A stretch of 64,000 nt of DNA from Bradyrhizobium sp. 149 (GTDB taxonomy: Bacteria; Pseudomonadota; Alphaproteobacteria; Rhizobiales; Xanthobacteraceae), in the NCBI RefSeq assembly GCF_023073915.1, contig NZ_JADPKK010000013.1:1-64000 (forward strand), in the 5' to 3' direction. The first letter of the stretch is position 1; the number at the start of each line of letters is the position of its first letter. A program made the position numbers and the translations under genes. Positions 54,922 to 62,485 of this stretch are shown here, one piece after another. The notes beneath the pieces are model-generated. The model was not told the DNA's origin. It worked only from the letters and a program-made list of their open reading frames with translations, and searched no databases.

Positions 54922-56355
54922 TCAGCCCGCGAAGGACCGACGCAGGCGGCGCCAGCCGATGACGATGCCCGTGGTGGAGAACAGAAAGCCGAGGGCGCAG
55001 AGCCCGACGACCAAGCCGTCGCGCAGCCACGGATGCGCGATGAGCGCTGGAAAATCCAGCGTGTGCAGCGCGCCGTAGAACCAGCGATAAGCCCGCCGCG
55101 ACGAATCCAGCCTTTGCAGCAAATTGCCGTCGGCGCCGTCGATGTCGAACCAGAGGCCGCCGCAGTACGAGCGGTAGACCGGGGCACCCGGGACGGTGGA
55201 CTGCGCGGGATAGTTGTCGTTGCCGGCAAGTCCGGACGGTGCGCCGCAGCCGACCGCGAGGCGCGCGATTAGCCTTTGAACCTCGTGCACATCGAGAAAT
55301 CCCGTTGCCCTATCGAGGGGCGCATCGCCTGCTTTGAACAATGTCTGACCGGCCAGGCCCATCCGATCCCGCCGATAAAGACTGCCGTTGAAGGCGAACC
55401 ATTCGATCTCACGGGCCGACGGCGGTACCGGCTGCCGATCGAGCGATGAGGCAGTCGTCCAGTTCGGTCCAGCGTTCATCACGCTGGATTCAGCCGAGGT
55501 CAATTGCCCACGCGAGAACAGCCGCCCGTGATCCATGGAGAGCCAGCCACTGAAAATCCACGTCAGCACGAAGACCGTCGCTGCGAGGCCGATGAGATGA
55601 TGCAGGGCATGCCAGCCGCGATAGGGTGAGCCGATCAGACCTCCGCGAAGCTTGATCCGCACAAGGCCGAGCACGGCGCCAAGCAAAGCCGCGATCAGGG
55701 CCAGCAGCGACAAGGTCCAGACCACGCAATCCCATAGCGACCAGTTGCTTCGCAGGACCGTTGGATAGATCCAGTGCAGCACACTGCCGACGAGATTCCA
55801 GCCGCGCTCGCTTCTTGTGGTATCCAGGACGATCTCGCCGGTGAGCGAGGAGACATAGACCTCGGTTCCGCCATGGTCGCCGAGGGCAACCCGAAACAAG
55901 GGTCGGTGGCGGTCAAAGCCATTCGGCACGCTCCATTGGTCATAGTCCGAGCGCGCAACGACCGCGGGCCGCGCAGCATCAAGTCCGCGGCTGCGTGCGT
56001 GATCTCGCGCGATGGCCAGCGCGACGTCGGAAGACGCAACCGACGCGCCGCCGCCGTCGGAGGCGCGGACTGCGCCTGCACGCGACCGCCCCGAGACGAC
56101 ATAGACCGGTCCGTCGCTGCGCTGGATCAAGCGGACGCGCGTCGCATCCGCGATGCCGCTCGCGGCAACGGCATCGGCGACCGCGATGCCCGTCTCAGCA
56201 CCATCCAGCGGCATGAGACCGGCGAAGCGTTCCGCTTCCGTCAAGGACGGAAACGGAACGAAGTGCATCACGATCCCCGTCGCGAACCACATCGCGAACA
56301 GCAGGCAGAACGCGACCCCGAGCCATCGATGCAGCAGGACGATCGCGCGCATCAT
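54922..56355 (-). CDS. PepSY-associated membrane protein
   Basis: About 477 residues. There are membrane segments at about 5-30, 195-235, 268-290 and near the C-terminus (about 445-468), with PepSY-type periplasmic segments between (for example VYVSSLTGEIVLDTTRSERG near 170). HRW in the first helix and HALHHLI in the third supply histidines like those that bind heme in relatives such as FsrB-type and PiuB-type reductases. Only 11 bases after the receptor stop, it is presumably cotranscribed under the B12 riboswitch. I infer reductive release or handling of the imported metal complex, which is unproven. Confidence 0.85.
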   Translation of the reverse strand: MMRAIVLLHRWLGVAFCLLFAMWFATGIVMHFVPFPSLTEAERFAGLMPLDGAETGIAVADAVAASGIADATRVRLIQRSDGPVYVVSGRSRAGAVRASDGGGASVASSDVALAIARDHARSRGLDAARPAVVARSDYDQWSVPNGFDRHRPLFRVALGDHGGTEVYVSSLTGEIVLDTTRSERGWNLVGSVLHWIYPTVLRSNWSLWDCVVWTLSLLALIAALLGAVLGLVRIKLRGGLIGSPYRGWHALHHLIGLAATVFVLTWIFSGWLSMDHGRLFSRGQLTSAESSVMNAGPNWTTASSLDRQPVPPSAREIEWFAFNGSLYRRDRMGLAGQTLFKAGDAPLDRATGFLDVHEVQRLIARLAVGCGAPSGLAGNDNYPAQSTVPGAPVYRSYCGGLWFDIDGADGNLLQRLDSSRRAYRWFYGALHTLDFPALIAHPWLRDGLVVGLCALGFLFSTTGIVIGWRRLRRSFAG

Positions 56356-56366
56356 CGATCAGCGTC

Positions 56367-58724
56367 CTACCATTTGAACGCGGCCGAGATCTCATAGGTC
56401 CGCGGCGCACCCAGCAGGATCTGGTCCGGATAGAACGGATCGCCCCAGATCGCATAACGCTTGTCGGCGATATTGCGCACCCGGAAGGTCAGGCGGGCCT
56501 GGTCGACCGCATTGAACACCGTTTTGGGGATGTCGACGAAGGCATAGACATCAGCCAACGTGTAGGCCTTCAGCGTCACGACGTTGGCGTCAGTGTTGTA
56601 GCGGTCGCCGACATGGCGGCCGGTGATGCCGAGCTCGACCGCCCAGGGCGTGAAGAACCGGTACGACGCACCGGCGTTCGCGACGATGCGCGGCACGTTC
56701 GGCGGCGTATTGCCGGAGAACGAGCCGCCGACGAAATTGTAATCGGCGTAGCGCGCATCGACATAGGCGATGTTGCCCCAGAGACGCAGCGGCTCGATCG
56801 GCCGCACGGACGCGGCGAGTTCCACGCCCTTGGATTCCTGCCGCCCCGCGAGGTTGAGCTGCATGCCGCCGGCCGCGGCATAGACGTTCTTGCGCAGGAT
56901 GTCGTAGGCCGAGAACGACCATTCAGCCCGGTTGTCCCAGAACAGGTGCTTGACGCCGGTCTCATAGGTGCGCGCGCTGGTCAGGTTGAGCGGATCGGTC
57001 GGATTGAGCAGGAAGATGTTGTTGGCGGCGATGTCGGCGCCGGTGGCATACTGGCTGAAGAAGGTCAGGCCCGGAACGGCGTCCCACGTGTAACCGATAC
57101 GCCCCGTTGTCGGGACCCAGGATTTCGAGAAGGGAAAATTCGCGTTCTCCAGTCCGGCCTTGTCAGTAGAGTTGCGGTCTAGCCCGATATGCTCGACGCG
57201 GAGGCCGCCGACCAGCGCGAAGCTTCGCGTGAGCTTCAGCCGATCCTCGAACGATAGCGCCTCGTTGTCGATGCGGGCGGTCTGCTGCTTGGTCGTGAGC
57301 AGGCCGTAATAGCCGCGCGGCGGATCGACTAGCGGAACGCTATCGCCGGGAAAGTTTGCGGCACCCGGCCTGATAAAATCGAGGTAGCTCGACGAAAGCG
57401 TCGTAACCAGGCGGTTGTCGAAACCGGCGATGCTTGCGTCCCAGATCAGGTCGGTGATGTTGCCGACCAAGCGTTGGCTGTGCGCGACATAGAAGCGCTC
57501 ACGGTCGACCATGTTCGTACCGGAATTAAACGCCTCGACCTCGTTATTGAACCAACTGCGCTCCGCGCCATAGCCATAGGCCTGGCTTTTCAACGTCAGG
57601 TCGGGCGCCAGCTTCAGCTCGAAGCCACCGCGCAGCCACACCTCCTGTGCGACGTTGCGATTGTCCAGGACGTTGTAGTTGGTGTTGAAGGTGCGGTCGT
57701 CGATCGTGACCGCGCCGAGATTCGTCTTGTTGTAGTTCGAGACGTAGTTCCCGGAAACGATCCCCGTCGTCGCGTGCGAGCCGCTGAAGGCGATCGGCAC
57801 CAACGGCACGCCCCAATAAGCCTTCGAGCGATCTTCCCGATACTCGATCGCGCCCCAGATCTTGAGACTGTCCGAGATGCGATAGTTGAGCTGGCCCGAT
57901 ACGTCGAGCGTTTTGGTGTTGGTGTCGTCGGCAAAGCCGTTGAGCGAGGAGCGGCTCACGTCGAAGCGGTAATCGAGTCCCTGGACGTTGGTGCTGCCGC
58001 CCGAGCCGTAATGCGCGCGGAACGAGTTGAGGGAATCCCAGGAGAAATCCGCCTCGTTGCGGATCGCTCCGGTGTGCGGCTGCTTGGTGACGAAGTTGAT
58101 CGCGCCGCCGGCGGCCCCCTCGCCCGAGATCAGCGAGGCCGGGCCTTTGAGGAATTCCACCGCCTCCAGATTAGCCGTGTCCATGACCCGCGAGGTCATG
58201 TTCTGCGGGCCGATCTTGATGCCGTTGTAGAGCGTGTTGATCTGGCTGTTGGTGAAGCCGCGCATCGAGAACGCCGCGGGCTCGGCCGGGTTATCGCCGG
58301 AGGTGACGCCGACGGCGCCCTGGGCGACCTCGGAGACGGTGCGATAGCCCTGCTCGCGCATGGTCTCGGCCGAGATTACTTCAACGGTCGCGGGGATCTC
58401 CCGCACGGTGAGACCGAGACGCGAGGCGCTTTCGGCGACTGCATTGGTGTTGAGCGGCGTTTGCGCCGCTGCGGTCGGCGCGATTGGCTTGGACGCAGCG
58501 GATGCCGTCGCTGTCCGGCGCGCTGCTGCGCGGCGTTGGCTCTGCGCGTCCCGGCCGGCCGGCCTGGCCTGCTTGCGGGATTGGGAGGGCGATACCTCGA
58601 CGGGCGGCAGAGGTTCGCGAGCCTGCTGCGCCAGTGCGGCGGGCAGATCAAGGACGGCAAAGGATGTGAGCGCAGCGGACGCAAGCAGGAATTTGCGCGG
58701 CCGGGTGGCTTGGACGGAAAACAT
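56367..58724 (-). CDS. TonB-dependent outer-membrane receptor under B12 control
   Basis: About 785 residues. It has a signal peptide to about residue 32, a proline/alanine/arginine-rich lead (33-90), then the plug domain with IPATVEVISAETM and RGFTNSQINTLYNGIKIG, and a beta-barrel with alternating strand patterns that ends in SAAFKW, the aromatic C-terminus expected of outer-membrane barrels. By sequence the plug resembles siderophore receptors (FhuE type). The upstream B12 riboswitch instead points to a corrinoid or cobalt-complex ligand. The SD GAGG is paired in a possible hairpin at 58730-58774. Confidence 0.9.
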   Translation of the reverse strand: MFSVQATRPRKFLLASAALTSFAVLDLPAALAQQAREPLPPVEVSPSQSRKQARPAGRDAQSQRRAAARRTATASAASKPIAPTAAAQTPLNTNAVAESASRLGLTVREIPATVEVISAETMREQGYRTVSEVAQGAVGVTSGDNPAEPAAFSMRGFTNSQINTLYNGIKIGPQNMTSRVMDTANLEAVEFLKGPASLISGEGAAGGAINFVTKQPHTGAIRNEADFSWDSLNSFRAHYGSGGSTNVQGLDYRFDVSRSSLNGFADDTNTKTLDVSGQLNYRISDSLKIWGAIEYREDRSKAYWGVPLVPIAFSGSHATTGIVSGNYVSNYNKTNLGAVTIDDRTFNTNYNVLDNRNVAQEVWLRGGFELKLAPDLTLKSQAYGYGAERSWFNNEVEAFNSGTNMVDRERFYVAHSQRLVGNITDLIWDASIAGFDNRLVTTLSSSYLDFIRPGAANFPGDSVPLVDPPRGYYGLLTTKQQTARIDNEALSFEDRLKLTRSFALVGGLRVEHIGLDRNSTDKAGLENANFPFSKSWVPTTGRIGYTWDAVPGLTFFSQYATGADIAANNIFLLNPTDPLNLTSARTYETGVKHLFWDNRAEWSFSAYDILRKNVYAAAGGMQLNLAGRQESKGVELAASVRPIEPLRLWGNIAYVDARYADYNFVGGSFSGNTPPNVPRIVANAGASYRFFTPWAVELGITGRHVGDRYNTDANVVTLKAYTLADVYAFVDIPKTVFNAVDQARLTFRVRNIADKRYAIWGDPFYPDQILLGAPRTYEISAAFKW

Positions 58725-58729
58725 CGTTC

Positions 58730-58774
58730 AGACCTCGGTATGACGTCAGTGGCACGTCACAGCGAACGAGGTCT
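58730..58774 (-). promoter_or_regulatory. Ribosome-binding-site-sequestering inverted repeat in receptor leader
   Basis: In the receptor mRNA, AGACCTCG (complement of 58774-58767) is perfectly complementary to CGAGGTCT (58737-58730), with 29 bases between. The second arm contains the GAGG ribosome site lying 8-9 bases before the ATG. Such a helix, located downstream of a B12 aptamer, is a likely translational switch. Folding with the aptamer was not computed. Confidence 0.5.
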
Positions 58775-58849
58775 CACCTTGGCTTGTCAGCCTTCCGATG
58801 AAGCCGAATGTCTGTACTCCCCGACCGACATCTTCGCGTGTGACCACGG

Positions 58850-59026
58850 CTGACGGCAGGTCTCCTGGCTCGCGGGTCACTACCTTGCGTCGCCTTCCCG
58901 GGACCGAGATACCCAGTGGCTCGTGACGCAAGATTCGCCGCTTACAGTTGCGGGGGCAGCCACGGCATTGGGGACAAAGTCCCCGCACCGCATTCCCTTT
59001 TCATCCCCTCTCGGGGAAACCGTCAC
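58850..59026 (-). ncRNA. Cobalamin riboswitch upstream of TonB receptor
   Basis: Read on the minus strand, the element shows the conserved B12 box as GCCCCCGCAACTGTAAGCGG (about 58936-58960) and the 3' motif GCGAGCCAGGAGACCTGCCG (about 58853-58874). GACGG near 59020-59024 can pair with CCGTC at 58852-58856 as the closing P1 helix. GGGAAGGCG occurs between them as expected. It lies about 125 bases upstream of the receptor start. Confidence 0.93.
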
Positions 59027-59111
59027 GAGCATCTAGGATTACGATCCAGACAGAGTCAATGTACCAGTTGCGGCGTTAGTGCCACAGCGACCAATTTCCC
59101 TGGAGAAAAGC
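59027..59111. promoter_or_regulatory. Divergent promoter region of riboswitch transcript and phosphatase gene
   Basis: On the minus strand TTGACT (59054-59059) resembles a -35 box ahead of the riboswitch. A matching -10 is poor (TAGATG, about 18 bases further). The plus-strand phosphatase start follows at 59112 with GGAG upstream. Confidence 0.35.
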
Positions 59112-59684
59112 ATGGAAGGCGAGACCTTCCTCTGGCTGATACGGCACGCGCCCGTCGACGGGATCGCCGGGACCATCCATGCAGCCGACGCACCGGCCGA
59201 TCTCCGCGATCGGGCGGCGTTGGAGGCGCTGCGGCAGCGCCTCCCGCGGGACGCCGGTAGCTATGCGAGTCCCTCGCGGCGCACGGTCGAAACGGCCCGC
59301 GCGCTGGGGCTCGAGCCGCTGCAGGTGCGCGAATTCAGCGAGCAAGACTTTGGTGACTGGACCGGCCGTCGGCACGACGAACTCGCCGCGACCGGTGGCG
59401 AGGCCTATGCAAAGTTCTGGAGCGATCCGGCGCGCGGACGGCCGCCGGGCGGCGAAAGCTTTGAGGATCAGGTCGCGCGCGTCCGGCTGGGTCTGTCAGG
59501 GATCGACGCCGGGGCCGCGACGCTGGTCGTGCATTCCGGCACGATCCGCGCGGCGCTGTGCATCGCGCTGGATCTGACGCCGCAAGCAGCCCTGCGCTTT
59601 GTGATCGATCCGCTGTCGCTGACCCGGATCGACCGGCTCGCGAGCGGCTGGCGCGTCGTCCGCGTCAATCAGCGGATGATCTGA
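59112..59684 (+). CDS. Histidine phosphatase family protein, probable alpha-ribazole phosphatase (CobC-like)
   Basis: About 190 residues. The phosphatase motif is LWLIRHAPVDG (phospho-histidine in IRHA), and the second catalytic histidine lies in VVHSGTIRAAL. The EQDFGDWTGRRHDEL stretch is typical of CobC/GpmB-like enzymes. Its stop TGA abuts the cobT stop exactly (TGATCA at 59682-59687). Neighbouring cob genes support the alpha-ribazole-5'-phosphate phosphatase role in lower-ligand attachment. A general phosphatase cannot be excluded. Confidence 0.85.
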   Translation: MEGETFLWLIRHAPVDGIAGTIHAADAPADLRDRAALEALRQRLPRDAGSYASPSRRTVETARALGLEPLQVREFSEQDFGDWTGRRHDELAATGGEAYAKFWSDPARGRPPGGESFEDQVARVRLGLSGIDAGAATLVVHSGTIRAALCIALDLTPQAALRFVIDPLSLTRIDRLASGWRVVRVNQRMI

Positions 59685-60737
59685 TCAGGCCGGACGATCG
59701 GGCACATTGGCCTGCGCAAAGGTCGCCATCCCGTTGTGAAGCGTGCAGGCCGACCGCACCAGCGGCAGCGCGATGGCCGCGCCCGATCCTTCGCCGAGCC
59801 TGAGATCGAGGCTGATCAGCGGTTGCACATTCAGCGCGCGAAGCACCAGCCGATGGCCCTGCTCCGCCGATTGGTGCGATGGCAGCAGAAACGGTTGGCA
59901 CGACGGGTTCAGCCGCACCGCCGCCAGCGCCGCCACCGACACGATGAAGCCGTCGATCAACACGGGAATCCGGCGTTGCGCGGCGGCGATGATCGCGCCG
60001 CAAATGGCTGCGATTTCGAGACCGCCGACGGCGCACAGTATCTTTTCTGGCGAAGCGCCCGCAACGCCATGGTGTGCAATCGCAGCGTCGATCACCCGCG
60101 CCTTGTGCGCACGGCCGGCCGCGTCGACGCCGGTACCGCTGCCCGCGATCTCCTCGGCGCCCATGCCGAGCAGGCTCGCCGCAATCGCCGCCGATGTGGT
60201 GGTATTGCCGATGCCCATCTCGCCGAAGATCAGCAGATCGGGGTGCCCGGCCTGCGCACGCGTCACCGCACGTCGGCCGGCTTCGAACGCAAATGCCAGC
60301 TCTGTGAGCGTGAGCGCCGCTTCGACACTGAAGTCCCGCGTGCCGCTACGTGGCTTGTCGATAACGATTCCAGCCATCTCCTCCTGCGCCAGCGTGCCAG
60401 CATCGACGACCTCCAGGCTAGAGCCCAGCTCACTCGCGAGCACCGAGATCGCGGCACCGCCGGAGGCAAAATTCGCCAGCATCGCGATGGTCACTTGTTG
60501 CGGATAGGCCGAGACGCGCTGCGCGACGATGCCGTGATCGCCGGCGAAGATGATGATCGGCACCCGCGCCGCGCGCGGCTGCTCAGTTGCTTGCAGGCCC
60601 GCAAGCTCGATCGCGAGCTGCTCGAGCCGGCCGAGCGCGCCGGTCGGTTTCGTCAGTTGCGCCTGCCGGGCCACCGCCGCCTCGCGATGGACTGCCGAGA
60701 TATCGGGGCACTGTTGGTAGACCCATTCGGGGAGCAT
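59685..60737 (-). CDS. cobT: Nicotinate-nucleotide-dimethylbenzimidazole phosphoribosyltransferase (CobT)
   Basis: About 350 residues, the normal length. It makes alpha-ribazole 5'-phosphate from DMB and nicotinate mononucleotide. The catalytic glutamate is in DLRLGEGSGAAIALPL, and the substrate-binding GEMGIGNTTTSAAIAASLLG and FAGDHGIVAQRVSAYPQ are typical. The cobF gene ends 15 bases upstream on the same strand, so cobF-cobT form the end of the riboswitch-led unit. It lies head-to-tail against the plus-strand phosphatase. Confidence 0.95.
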   Translation of the reverse strand: MLPEWVYQQCPDISAVHREAAVARQAQLTKPTGALGRLEQLAIELAGLQATEQPRAARVPIIIFAGDHGIVAQRVSAYPQQVTIAMLANFASGGAAISVLASELGSSLEVVDAGTLAQEEMAGIVIDKPRSGTRDFSVEAALTLTELAFAFEAGRRAVTRAQAGHPDLLIFGEMGIGNTTTSAAIAASLLGMGAEEIAGSGTGVDAAGRAHKARVIDAAIAHHGVAGASPEKILCAVGGLEIAAICGAIIAAAQRRIPVLIDGFIVSVAALAAVRLNPSCQPFLLPSHQSAEQGHRLVLRALNVQPLISLDLRLGEGSGAAIALPLVRSACTLHNGMATFAQANVPDRPA

Positions 60738-60752
60738 GCTGCCTCGCTTGCC

Positions 60753-61502
60753 TCACGGCCTGCGCTTGAGCATGTAACTGTCCATGATCCAGCCATACCG
60801 CTCGCGCGCCTCCTGTCGCACGGCGACGATGCGCGGGCCGATCTCCGCAAGCGCGCCGCACATGATGATCTGATCCGGCATGCCGAGATAGGCGCCCCAC
60901 CAGATGTGCAGGCCCGCCGGATCAAGCGACTGGAACGCCGTGCCGCCGTCGAGCATCACCACCACGGTATCGACACCTTGCGGCCAGCCGCCATCGCGCA
61001 AGCGGCGTCCCGTCGTCACCAGGAATGGCTCGCCGATATCGTTGAGCGGCAGCGCATGCGCTGCGCACAGCGCCTGGATCGAGGTGATGCCGGGCACGAC
61101 CTCGATGTCAGGCAAGGGATTGAGCCGCCGCGCAATACGCAGCGAAGAATCATAAAGCGAGGGATCGCCCCAGATCAACAGCGCGACCTTGCCATGACCT
61201 TCGAGATGACTCGCAATCGTCTGCGACCAGGTCGCGGCTACGGCATCGTGCCAATCGTCCACGCCCTTGCGGTAATCGGCTTTAGCCGCGTCGCGTACGG
61301 GAAGATCGAACTCGGCGATGCGCGTCTTGTCGCTGGTGAGCACATCCGCGCAGATCGTCCGCCTGAGATCGGCGAGATCGGATTTTGCAGGCCCCTTGCG
61401 CGGGATCAGGACGAGATCGGCCGCGTTGATCGCACCGATCGCGGCGCGCGTCAGCTGATCAGGGTTGCCGCAACCGATGCCTATCAAGGAGAGCGTGAAC
61501 AT
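60753..61502 (-). CDS. cobF: Precorrin-6A synthase, deacetylating (CobF)
   Basis: About 249 residues, SAM-dependent methyltransferase of the cobalamin family. The N-terminal SLIGIGCGNPDQLTRAA is the SAM-site loop, and VALLIWGDPSLYDSSLR is the second conserved stretch. CobF, found only in the aerobic pathway, converts precorrin-5 to precorrin-6A with loss of acetate. It lies 48 bases downstream of the CbiM-like gene. The start at 61502 is just after an AGG site. Confidence 0.93.
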   Translation of the reverse strand: MFTLSLIGIGCGNPDQLTRAAIGAINAADLVLIPRKGPAKSDLADLRRTICADVLTSDKTRIAEFDLPVRDAAKADYRKGVDDWHDAVAATWSQTIASHLEGHGKVALLIWGDPSLYDSSLRIARRLNPLPDIEVVPGITSIQALCAAHALPLNDIGEPFLVTTGRRLRDGGWPQGVDTVVVMLDGGTAFQSLDPAGLHIWWGAYLGMPDQIIMCGALAEIGPRIVAVRQEARERYGWIMDSYMLKRRP

Positions 61503-61550
61503 CTTACCTGCGAAGGGCGGCCGCACATCGGCCGCCCGTTCGCTTGTCTC

Positions 61551-62228
61551 TTAAGCTGCGTTGTGCAAACGCGGGGTGACGAGGCCGGGCGCGGTGACGC
61601 CGCGCAACGACTTTGCCAGCGCCAGCACGCCGAGATCGGCGAGCGGCTCGATCACGATGACCAGCGCGTAGGACGCCGCGAACGTCGCGATGCTGGCGAG
61701 GTTGGTGGCGCCAAAGCCTGATCCATAAATCGCCCAGAACGCCACCCAGGCGATGACGCCGGACTGATACGTGGTCGAAAGCGCCAGTGCCTGGCGGTAC
61801 TTCAGATCGACATAGGCCGTGTTGCGCGAAATGATCCGCGTGGCGATCGCCTGGATCGCGAACAGCGGCACCAGCAGGGTTGTGACGTTCATGCCATATT
61901 GCGGCAGGTCGGGCGGCTCGAAGAAGATGCCCTGGAACAGCAGGCCGAAAGCGAGGCCGAACGCCGCAGGCGCAGCTCCAAACAGGAGAAACAAGGTCGA
62001 GCCGAGGATGAAGTGCACTTCGGAGACGCCGACCGGGAAGTGCGGCAGGATCTCGAAGAAGACGAACACGAGGCTCGTGGTGGCGAGCGTCCGCGCCGCG
62101 AACGACGTGATGCCCTGCTGGCGCACGGTCTCGACCGCGAGCTTCAGGGCAACGCCGCCGACGGCGATGCCGGTTGCGTAACTCAACACGAGCTTGGCGT
62201 CCGAGACTAGTCCGGGTTCGATATGCAT
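61551..62228 (-). CDS. CbiM-like cobalt ECF-transporter permease component, orphan
   Basis: About 225 residues with roughly six membrane segments. The N-terminus MHIEPG matches the MHI metal-binding N-terminus of CbiM, in which His2 binds Co2+, and HFILGSTLFLLFGAAPAAFGLA is the family core. No CbiN, CbiQ or CbiO gene is present in the window, so energising partners must be encoded elsewhere or absent. It is 49 bases after a cobalamin riboswitch, strongly supporting a cobalt-uptake role. Confidence 0.82.
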   Translation of the reverse strand: MHIEPGLVSDAKLVLSYATGIAVGGVALKLAVETVRQQGITSFAARTLATTSLVFVFFEILPHFPVGVSEVHFILGSTLFLLFGAAPAAFGLAFGLLFQGIFFEPPDLPQYGMNVTTLLVPLFAIQAIATRIISRNTAYVDLKYRQALALSTTYQSGVIAWVAFWAIYGSGFGATNLASIATFAASYALVIVIEPLADLGVLALAKSLRGVTAPGLVTPRLHNAA

Positions 62229-62276
62229 GGCTCAGATCCTTCTTGCCGTCACACCCGACGGCCTTGGCCTCAAAAC

Positions 62277-62467
62277 GTGCACGGCCGGTCTCCTGGCTCG
62301 CGGTTCACTGGGAGTCTCCGGCCTTCCCGAACCTTGCGGGCCAGTGGCTGATCGAAGTCCCTCACCGCTTACAGTCGCGGGGGCGGCTGGGGTTTTGGGC
62401 GCCGCAACTGGGTCCGCCCACCCCCATTCCCGATTATGCTCCGGCGCTTTGCGCCGCGTCGAGCACC
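62277..62467 (-). ncRNA. Cobalamin riboswitch upstream of cbiM-like/cobF/cobT
   Basis: On the minus strand the B12 box GCCGCCCCCGCGACTGTAAG (about 62366-62386) and the 3' motif GCGAGCCAGGAGACCGGCC (about 62282-62300) are present, with GGGAAGGCCGGAGA between. GTGC near 62463-62466 can pair with GCAC at 62277-62280 as P1. The CbiM-like start follows 49 bases downstream. Confidence 0.93.
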
Positions 62468-62485
62468 ATGCCTCTCCTGTGTGCC

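Follow-up and report, generated by a model that had tools for sequence, protein, structure and literature searches.

Downstream of a cobalamin riboswitch in Bradyrhizobium sp. 149, we identified a two-gene operon encoding a TonB-dependent receptor and a PepSY_TM membrane protein. We propose that this operon is a cobalt-acquisition module, which would take up a cobalt chelate for B12 synthesis and be shut off by B12. We assign this reading a probability of roughly 60%. Sequence comparison shows the riboswitch, a conserved gene order, kinship to the receptor CrtA and the reductase FoxB, the absence of BtuC and linked cobalt permeases. All coordinates refer to the window, which is the whole 64-kb stretch of DNA that was analysed, unless a contig or locus is named.

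The riboswitch, the receptor and the PepSY protein

The cobalamin riboswitch aptamer (58838-59039, minus strand) matched RF00174 over its full length without truncation, and its cmscan score of 134 bits (E = 1.6e-33) was well above the gathering score of 31.5 bits. An earlier note on this DNA had placed the receptor under B12-riboswitch control, and this was borne out. The riboswitch is real, but the interval given in that note ended at 59026 and dropped 13 bases of the 5' end of the aptamer. Judging from the riboswitch class, plentiful B12 would lower expression of the receptor. The 136-nt leader from the aptamer to the start codon had a folding z-score of only -1.4 as a whole. It contains a hairpin (58731-58774, minus strand) that encloses a putative Shine-Dalgarno sequence, CGAGGT, about 8 nt 5' of the receptor ATG, and that is likely the expression platform. 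CGAGGT was present in all 15 aligned Bradyrhizobium leaders; the opposite strand reads GACCUCG or GACCUUGG, and pairing is still possible in most of the 15. The enclosed Shine-Dalgarno sequence suggests that the riboswitch acts at the level of translation.

The receptor gene (56367-58724, minus strand) encodes a CrtA-like TonB-dependent receptor of 785 aa, with Pfam Plug and barrel matches far over the cut-offs. Its scores against the BtuB models were 59.1 bits for TIGR01779 (cut-off 599.7) and 35.3 bits for NF007926 (cut-off 836). The best NCBIfam model was the siderophore-receptor model TIGR01783, with 184.9 bits, under the cut-off of 223.5. The receptor had been described as siderophore-type and not BtuB-type; this agrees with the ranking of the models, and by their cut-offs the protein falls outside both BtuB and the classified siderophore receptors. 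The nearest solved structure was 9RVQ/9RVX (249.5 bits, E = 6.8e-73) of CrtA, through which Bordetella pertussis imports copper chelates; the next was FhuA with 92 bits. The ligand site of CrtA was taken as six residues, Y130, W265, E337, Q356, H358 and R395, and the receptor has P173, W304, E395, V413, H415 and R452 at these positions. Thus, four of the six are kept (W304, E395, H415 and R452) and two are changed (Y130 to P173 and Q356 to V413). H415, the counterpart of the essential His358 of CrtA, and E395 were invariant in 28 of 28 aligned receptors. For the receptor, AlphaFold2 gave a model of poor quality (mean pLDDT 54) in which the plug did not fold, and we made no use of it.

The PepSY_TM gene (54922-56355, minus strand) encodes a four-helix membrane protein of 477 aa. 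It starts 11 bases downstream of the receptor gene, exactly the gap reported in the earlier note, although the gene lies outside the interval 56367-59026 that the note covered. The protein matched PF03929 with 44.4 bits (cut-off 28.8), and two other PepSY_TM proteins in the genome scored higher, with 185-205 bits; by sequence it is a divergent PepSY_TM member. Its AlphaFold2 model (mean pLDDT 78, with the membrane part least certain) has helices at residues 2-32, 205-232, 248-274 and 442-476, in agreement with the four transmembrane helices that had been predicted. A Foldseek search with the model returned FoxB (7abw, E = 5.8e-5) as the sole PDB match at E ≤ 0.001, with low TM-scores of 0.26/0.32, and this best fold match is in line with the reductase-like character that had been suggested. 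Searches of the PDB by sequence, with the protein (phmmer) or its profile, gave no match, FoxB included, so the kinship to FoxB rests on fold.

Histidines 9, 194, 252 and 431 of the PepSY protein were invariant in 26 relatives, with two on each membrane face when the faces are read off the helix positions in the model (pLDDT 78). This placement fits the way in which FoxB is described, and CrpH proposed, to hold two haems, and from this we infer that the protein may bind haem. Given the fold and the four invariant histidines, reduction of a metal by this protein, the step that the earlier note had suggested, is plausible, although the zinc-type relatives described below complicate this reading. 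The protein resembles the ferrisiderophore reductases FoxB and FsrB in its PepSY_TM family, four transmembrane helices, two periplasmic PepSY-like moieties and histidines on both faces. It differs from them in lacking a sequence match to FoxB and in having genetic partners that indicate cobalt, not iron.

Conservation and genomic setting of the pair

We compared 80 loci encoding relatives of the PepSY protein, nearly all from Bradyrhizobium. The riboswitch, the receptor gene and the PepSY gene were kept together in 73 of them, and an exact B12 box was found 144-150 nt upstream of the receptor start in 73/80. The gap between receptor and PepSY genes was 12 bases in 59 of the 80 loci. The conserved position of the B12 box and the conserved gap argue that the arrangement is not due to chance. 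The seven exceptions were L048, L107, L109, L113, L115, L116 and L117. L048 and L117 were ended by a contig edge, L107 had a broken receptor, and L109 and L113 had the riboswitch according to Rfam, which left L115 and L116 as the only loci of the 80 truly without it. At L109 (3217-11375), riboswitch and CrtA-like receptor each occurred twice, in tandem around a single PepSY gene. At another locus (L134, 6726-8150, minus strand), an orphan PepSY gene of the Bradyrhizobium sp. 149 type, without a receptor, was found upstream of a riboswitch-controlled NrdA-like gene. Hydantoinase genes of the hyuA/hyuB type downstream were considered as operon members and rejected, as they were absent or displaced in most loci.

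Searches over the whole class and order used a PepSY profile. Divergent riboswitch-controlled pairs occurred in Methylobacterium, sphingomonads, Caulobacter and metagenome-assembled genomes, with PepSY proteins 35-56% identical. At 35-39% identity the riboswitch was kept in Methylobacterium, Sphingomonas, Novosphingobium, Sphingobium and Caulobacter plasmids. Bradyrhizobium itself has a second family of riboswitch-controlled pairs, with PepSY proteins about 40% identical. On Caulobacter plasmid p2 (L144), the receptor and PepSY genes are each annotated in two pieces, so that this copy may be defective or contain sequencing errors.

The receptor-PepSY pair adjoins a B12-synthesis cluster containing cobT, cobF and further cob genes. 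A divergent neighbour (59079-59684, plus strand) encodes a CobC-like histidine phosphatase (PF00300, 113 bits), which scored 85.6 bits against TIGR03162, under the cut-off of that model, and which is kept in most loci. It is followed by cobT and cobF (59685-61526, minus strand; TIGR03160, 413 bits, and TIGR02434, 351 bits). A second cobalamin riboswitch (62266-62485, minus strand; RF00174, 103.4 bits) lies upstream of a gene for a CbiM-like protein (61551-62228, minus strand; PF01891, 61.8 bits), and the order on the minus strand is the second riboswitch, the CbiM-like gene, cobF and cobT. The CbiM-like protein is a candidate inner-membrane partner for Co2+. No CbiNQO genes were seen beside its gene, and the protein is possibly a solitary cobalt S-component. 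The CbiM-like gene was located 5.8-6.7 kb from the PepSY gene in 32 of 32 genomes compared. It was rejected as an obligate partner, since 12 of the 46 pair-bearing genomes lack it. The genome has one more cobalamin riboswitch, its third and final one (C13:75618-75837), in the cob region about 13 kb past the second. The same genome also has a NiCoT gene (L147, C1:1571426-1572304) with the gene for another TonB-dependent receptor directly after it; no cobalamin riboswitch is present there, and these genes possibly serve nickel uptake.

Genes for cobalt permeases were found beside the pair in relatives. L113 has the order riboswitch-NiCoT-PepSY plus a riboswitch-receptor unit, and L117 has the order receptor-PepSY-NiCoT. 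A Caulobacter plasmid carries CbtB, a CbtA-like ORF (recognised by eye), riboswitch, receptor, PepSY and DUF4198, the last of which we take to be COG5266, the family of IcuB. Genes for a metallophore were not seen next to the receptor-PepSY pair.

Cargo of the receptor and alternative explanations

In the proposed cobalt-acquisition module, low cellular cobalamin would cause the riboswitch to permit translation of the receptor and PepSY genes. The TonB-driven CrtA-like receptor would carry chelated cobalt to the periplasm, where a PepSY protein of the FoxB/CrpH type, probably with two haems on its four invariant histidines, would assist in releasing the metal, possibly through reduction of Co(III) to Co(II). 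Co2+ would then cross the inner membrane by a separate permease, CbiM-like here and NiCoT or CbtAB in relatives, and supply de novo B12 synthesis. The adjoining B12-synthesis genes, the riboswitch and CbiM-like gene in the window and the retained essential histidine of CrtA support this reading. Against it stand the lack of metallophore genes beside the pair, the genomes that have the pair but not the CbiM-like gene, and an anti-association of the pair with BtuC.

We analyzed corrinoid uptake genes in the genome and across the genus. The single FecCD permease of Bradyrhizobium sp. 149 is located in a haem-uptake-type cluster. When the genome was searched with the BtuC-like permease of relatives, nothing matched at E ≤ 1e-60, and their BtuB-like receptor had no counterpart either. 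The pair differs in this respect from BtuB-BtuFCD, with which it shares a cobalamin riboswitch preceding a TonB-dependent receptor, and the earlier view that this is not a classical BtuB/BtuCDF system was upheld by the BtuB model scores and the setting of the FecCD permease. Across the genus, 5 genomes had both the pair and the BtuC-like permease, 41 had the pair only, 36 had BtuC only and 7 had neither (Fisher p = 1.2e-12, with kinship ignored). In pair-free Bradyrhizobium (L179-L184), the riboswitch precedes a different, BtuB-like receptor and the BtuC-like permease is divergent; btuC/btuF-like genes lie near this receptor, including one for a BtuF-like protein in L180. Other riboswitch targets in relatives (L163-L178), identified by eye, were MetE-like and class I NrdA-like B12-independent isozymes.

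The avoidance between the pair and BtuC is as expected of a functional substitute for corrinoid uptake, and it could also reflect shared ancestry. The same pattern would be expected if genomes either rely on salvage or build B12 de novo from cobalt. The receptor could accordingly be read as a replacement for BtuB that imports corrinoids (cobalamin or cobinamide), with the PepSY protein reducing cob(III)alamin or helping it onward to some inner-membrane importer. The B12 riboswitch in front of the receptor and the BtuB-like arrangement of pair-free strains are in keeping with this, but we consider it unlikely. The receptor keeps the metal-chelate site of CrtA and falls far short of the BtuB cut-off, the genome is without BtuC, the relatives travel with cobalt permeases, and the riboswitch-controlled pairs of about 40% identity occur together with BtuC. 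The earlier note had allowed either a cobalt complex or a corrinoid as cargo. Because relatives adjoin NiCoT or CbtAB genes and the search for an inner-membrane importer of B12 gave none, the cobalt complex fits much better than the corrinoid.

A metal other than cobalt was also considered, either nickel or another divalent ion, or an unselective receptor whose riboswitch adjusts only one part of a wider uptake of metals. NiCoT permeases transport Ni or Co, CrtA has been described as a low-selectivity scavenger (PMC12914433), and zinc-type and copper-type relatives exist. However, a cobalamin riboswitch is sensible for a cobalt need and not for nickel or zinc, and the pocket is consistently distinct from those of the copper-type and zinc-type relatives, which makes this explanation improbable. 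It is highly improbable that the pair consists of a common receptor for ferric (xeno)siderophores and a ferrisiderophore reductase of the FoxB/FsrB type, tied to B12 status by happenstance. TIGR01783 as the best receptor model and FoxB as the closest PepSY fold point that way; the model score is below its cut-off, however, among receptors of known structure the copper importer CrtA is far closer to this one than any siderophore receptor is, and cobalamin riboswitches are conserved over divergent relatives.

The proposed cobalt module has partial precedents. IcuA of Methylobacterium extorquens AM1 is a TonB-dependent receptor that raises cobalt uptake for B12 demand (PMC2732905, PMC2773004). 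Like IcuA, the receptor described here is a TonB-dependent receptor, and it is proposed to supply cobalt for B12; unlike in that system, its partner is a PepSY protein and not a COG5266 periplasmic protein, and a riboswitch is unmentioned in the text of PMC2732905. A Novosphingobium operon of riboswitch, receptor, NiCoT and CobW genes has been predicted to serve cobalt (PMC7689651). There too an AdoCbl riboswitch precedes a receptor predicted to take cobalt, and no PepSY partner is mentioned. The same 2021 review stated that a cobalt-specific outer-membrane receptor was not yet confirmed (PMC7689651). Our literature search, which was incomplete in coverage, found TonB-dependent cobalt uptake and a predicted riboswitch-receptor-NiCoT cobalt operon already known, and no description of a riboswitch-receptor-PepSY unit.

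Copper-type and zinc-type sister pairs

The CruR-CrtA-CrpH copper operon of Bordetella pertussis ends with crpH, a PepSY_TM gene (PMC12914433, PMC13038864). The Bradyrhizobium pair has the same order of a receptor gene and then a PepSY_TM gene, and shares the four invariant PepSY histidines, as far as CrpH can be compared by description and not by sequence. It has a B12 riboswitch in place of CruR and is located at a B12-synthesis cluster. The pair would work in the manner of CrtA-CrpH, but because the regulator and two pocket residues differ, we did not file it as a CrtA copper system.

Three pairs without a riboswitch (L122, L124 and L126) were located beside COG0523 GTPase genes and were termed zinc-type; in L122 a ZnuA gene also adjoins the pair. 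The three face ABC-2 genes, an arrangement like that of Caulobacter znuK opposite znuGHI. Using a palindrome scan and a pattern search, we located a Zur-like palindrome, TGTAAYGTTATAACATTACA, at these loci and at L123, two bases off in L122. L123, which falls in the zinc-type group by the tree, has a perfect palindrome before the receptor gene. The window has no such palindrome. The receptors of all four loci carry W304 to E and A414 to H changes, and the riboswitch-type pocket differs consistently from those of copper-type and zinc-type relatives. In the PepSY tree, a Variovorax pair followed by an SCO gene (a copper-type context) was placed outside, and the zinc-type group inside several riboswitch-controlled lineages. 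The haem-type histidines are also kept in the PepSY proteins of pairs with a Zur-like box. Zinc is not redox-active, so metal reduction may not be the whole function of these proteins.

These comparisons raise an even chance that receptor-PepSY pairs belong to a single modular family for metal-chelate uptake, whose members have been adapted to copper, cobalt or zinc by exchange of the control element (CruR, cobalamin riboswitch or Zur-like operator) along with a few pocket residues around the invariant histidine and glutamate, with the Bradyrhizobium sp. 149 pair as the cobalt version. Comparing the sister systems for copper, cobalt and zinc could show, as a natural experiment, how receptor pockets select a metal and whether PepSY proteins act by reduction. 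B12-making soil bacteria must obtain scarce cobalt, and the pair provides a defined and conserved candidate for this task, with a partner, residues and a regulatory readout. If the family reading is true, the cobalt version would contain the first receptors for cobalt in the outer membrane to have a PepSY partner of their own.
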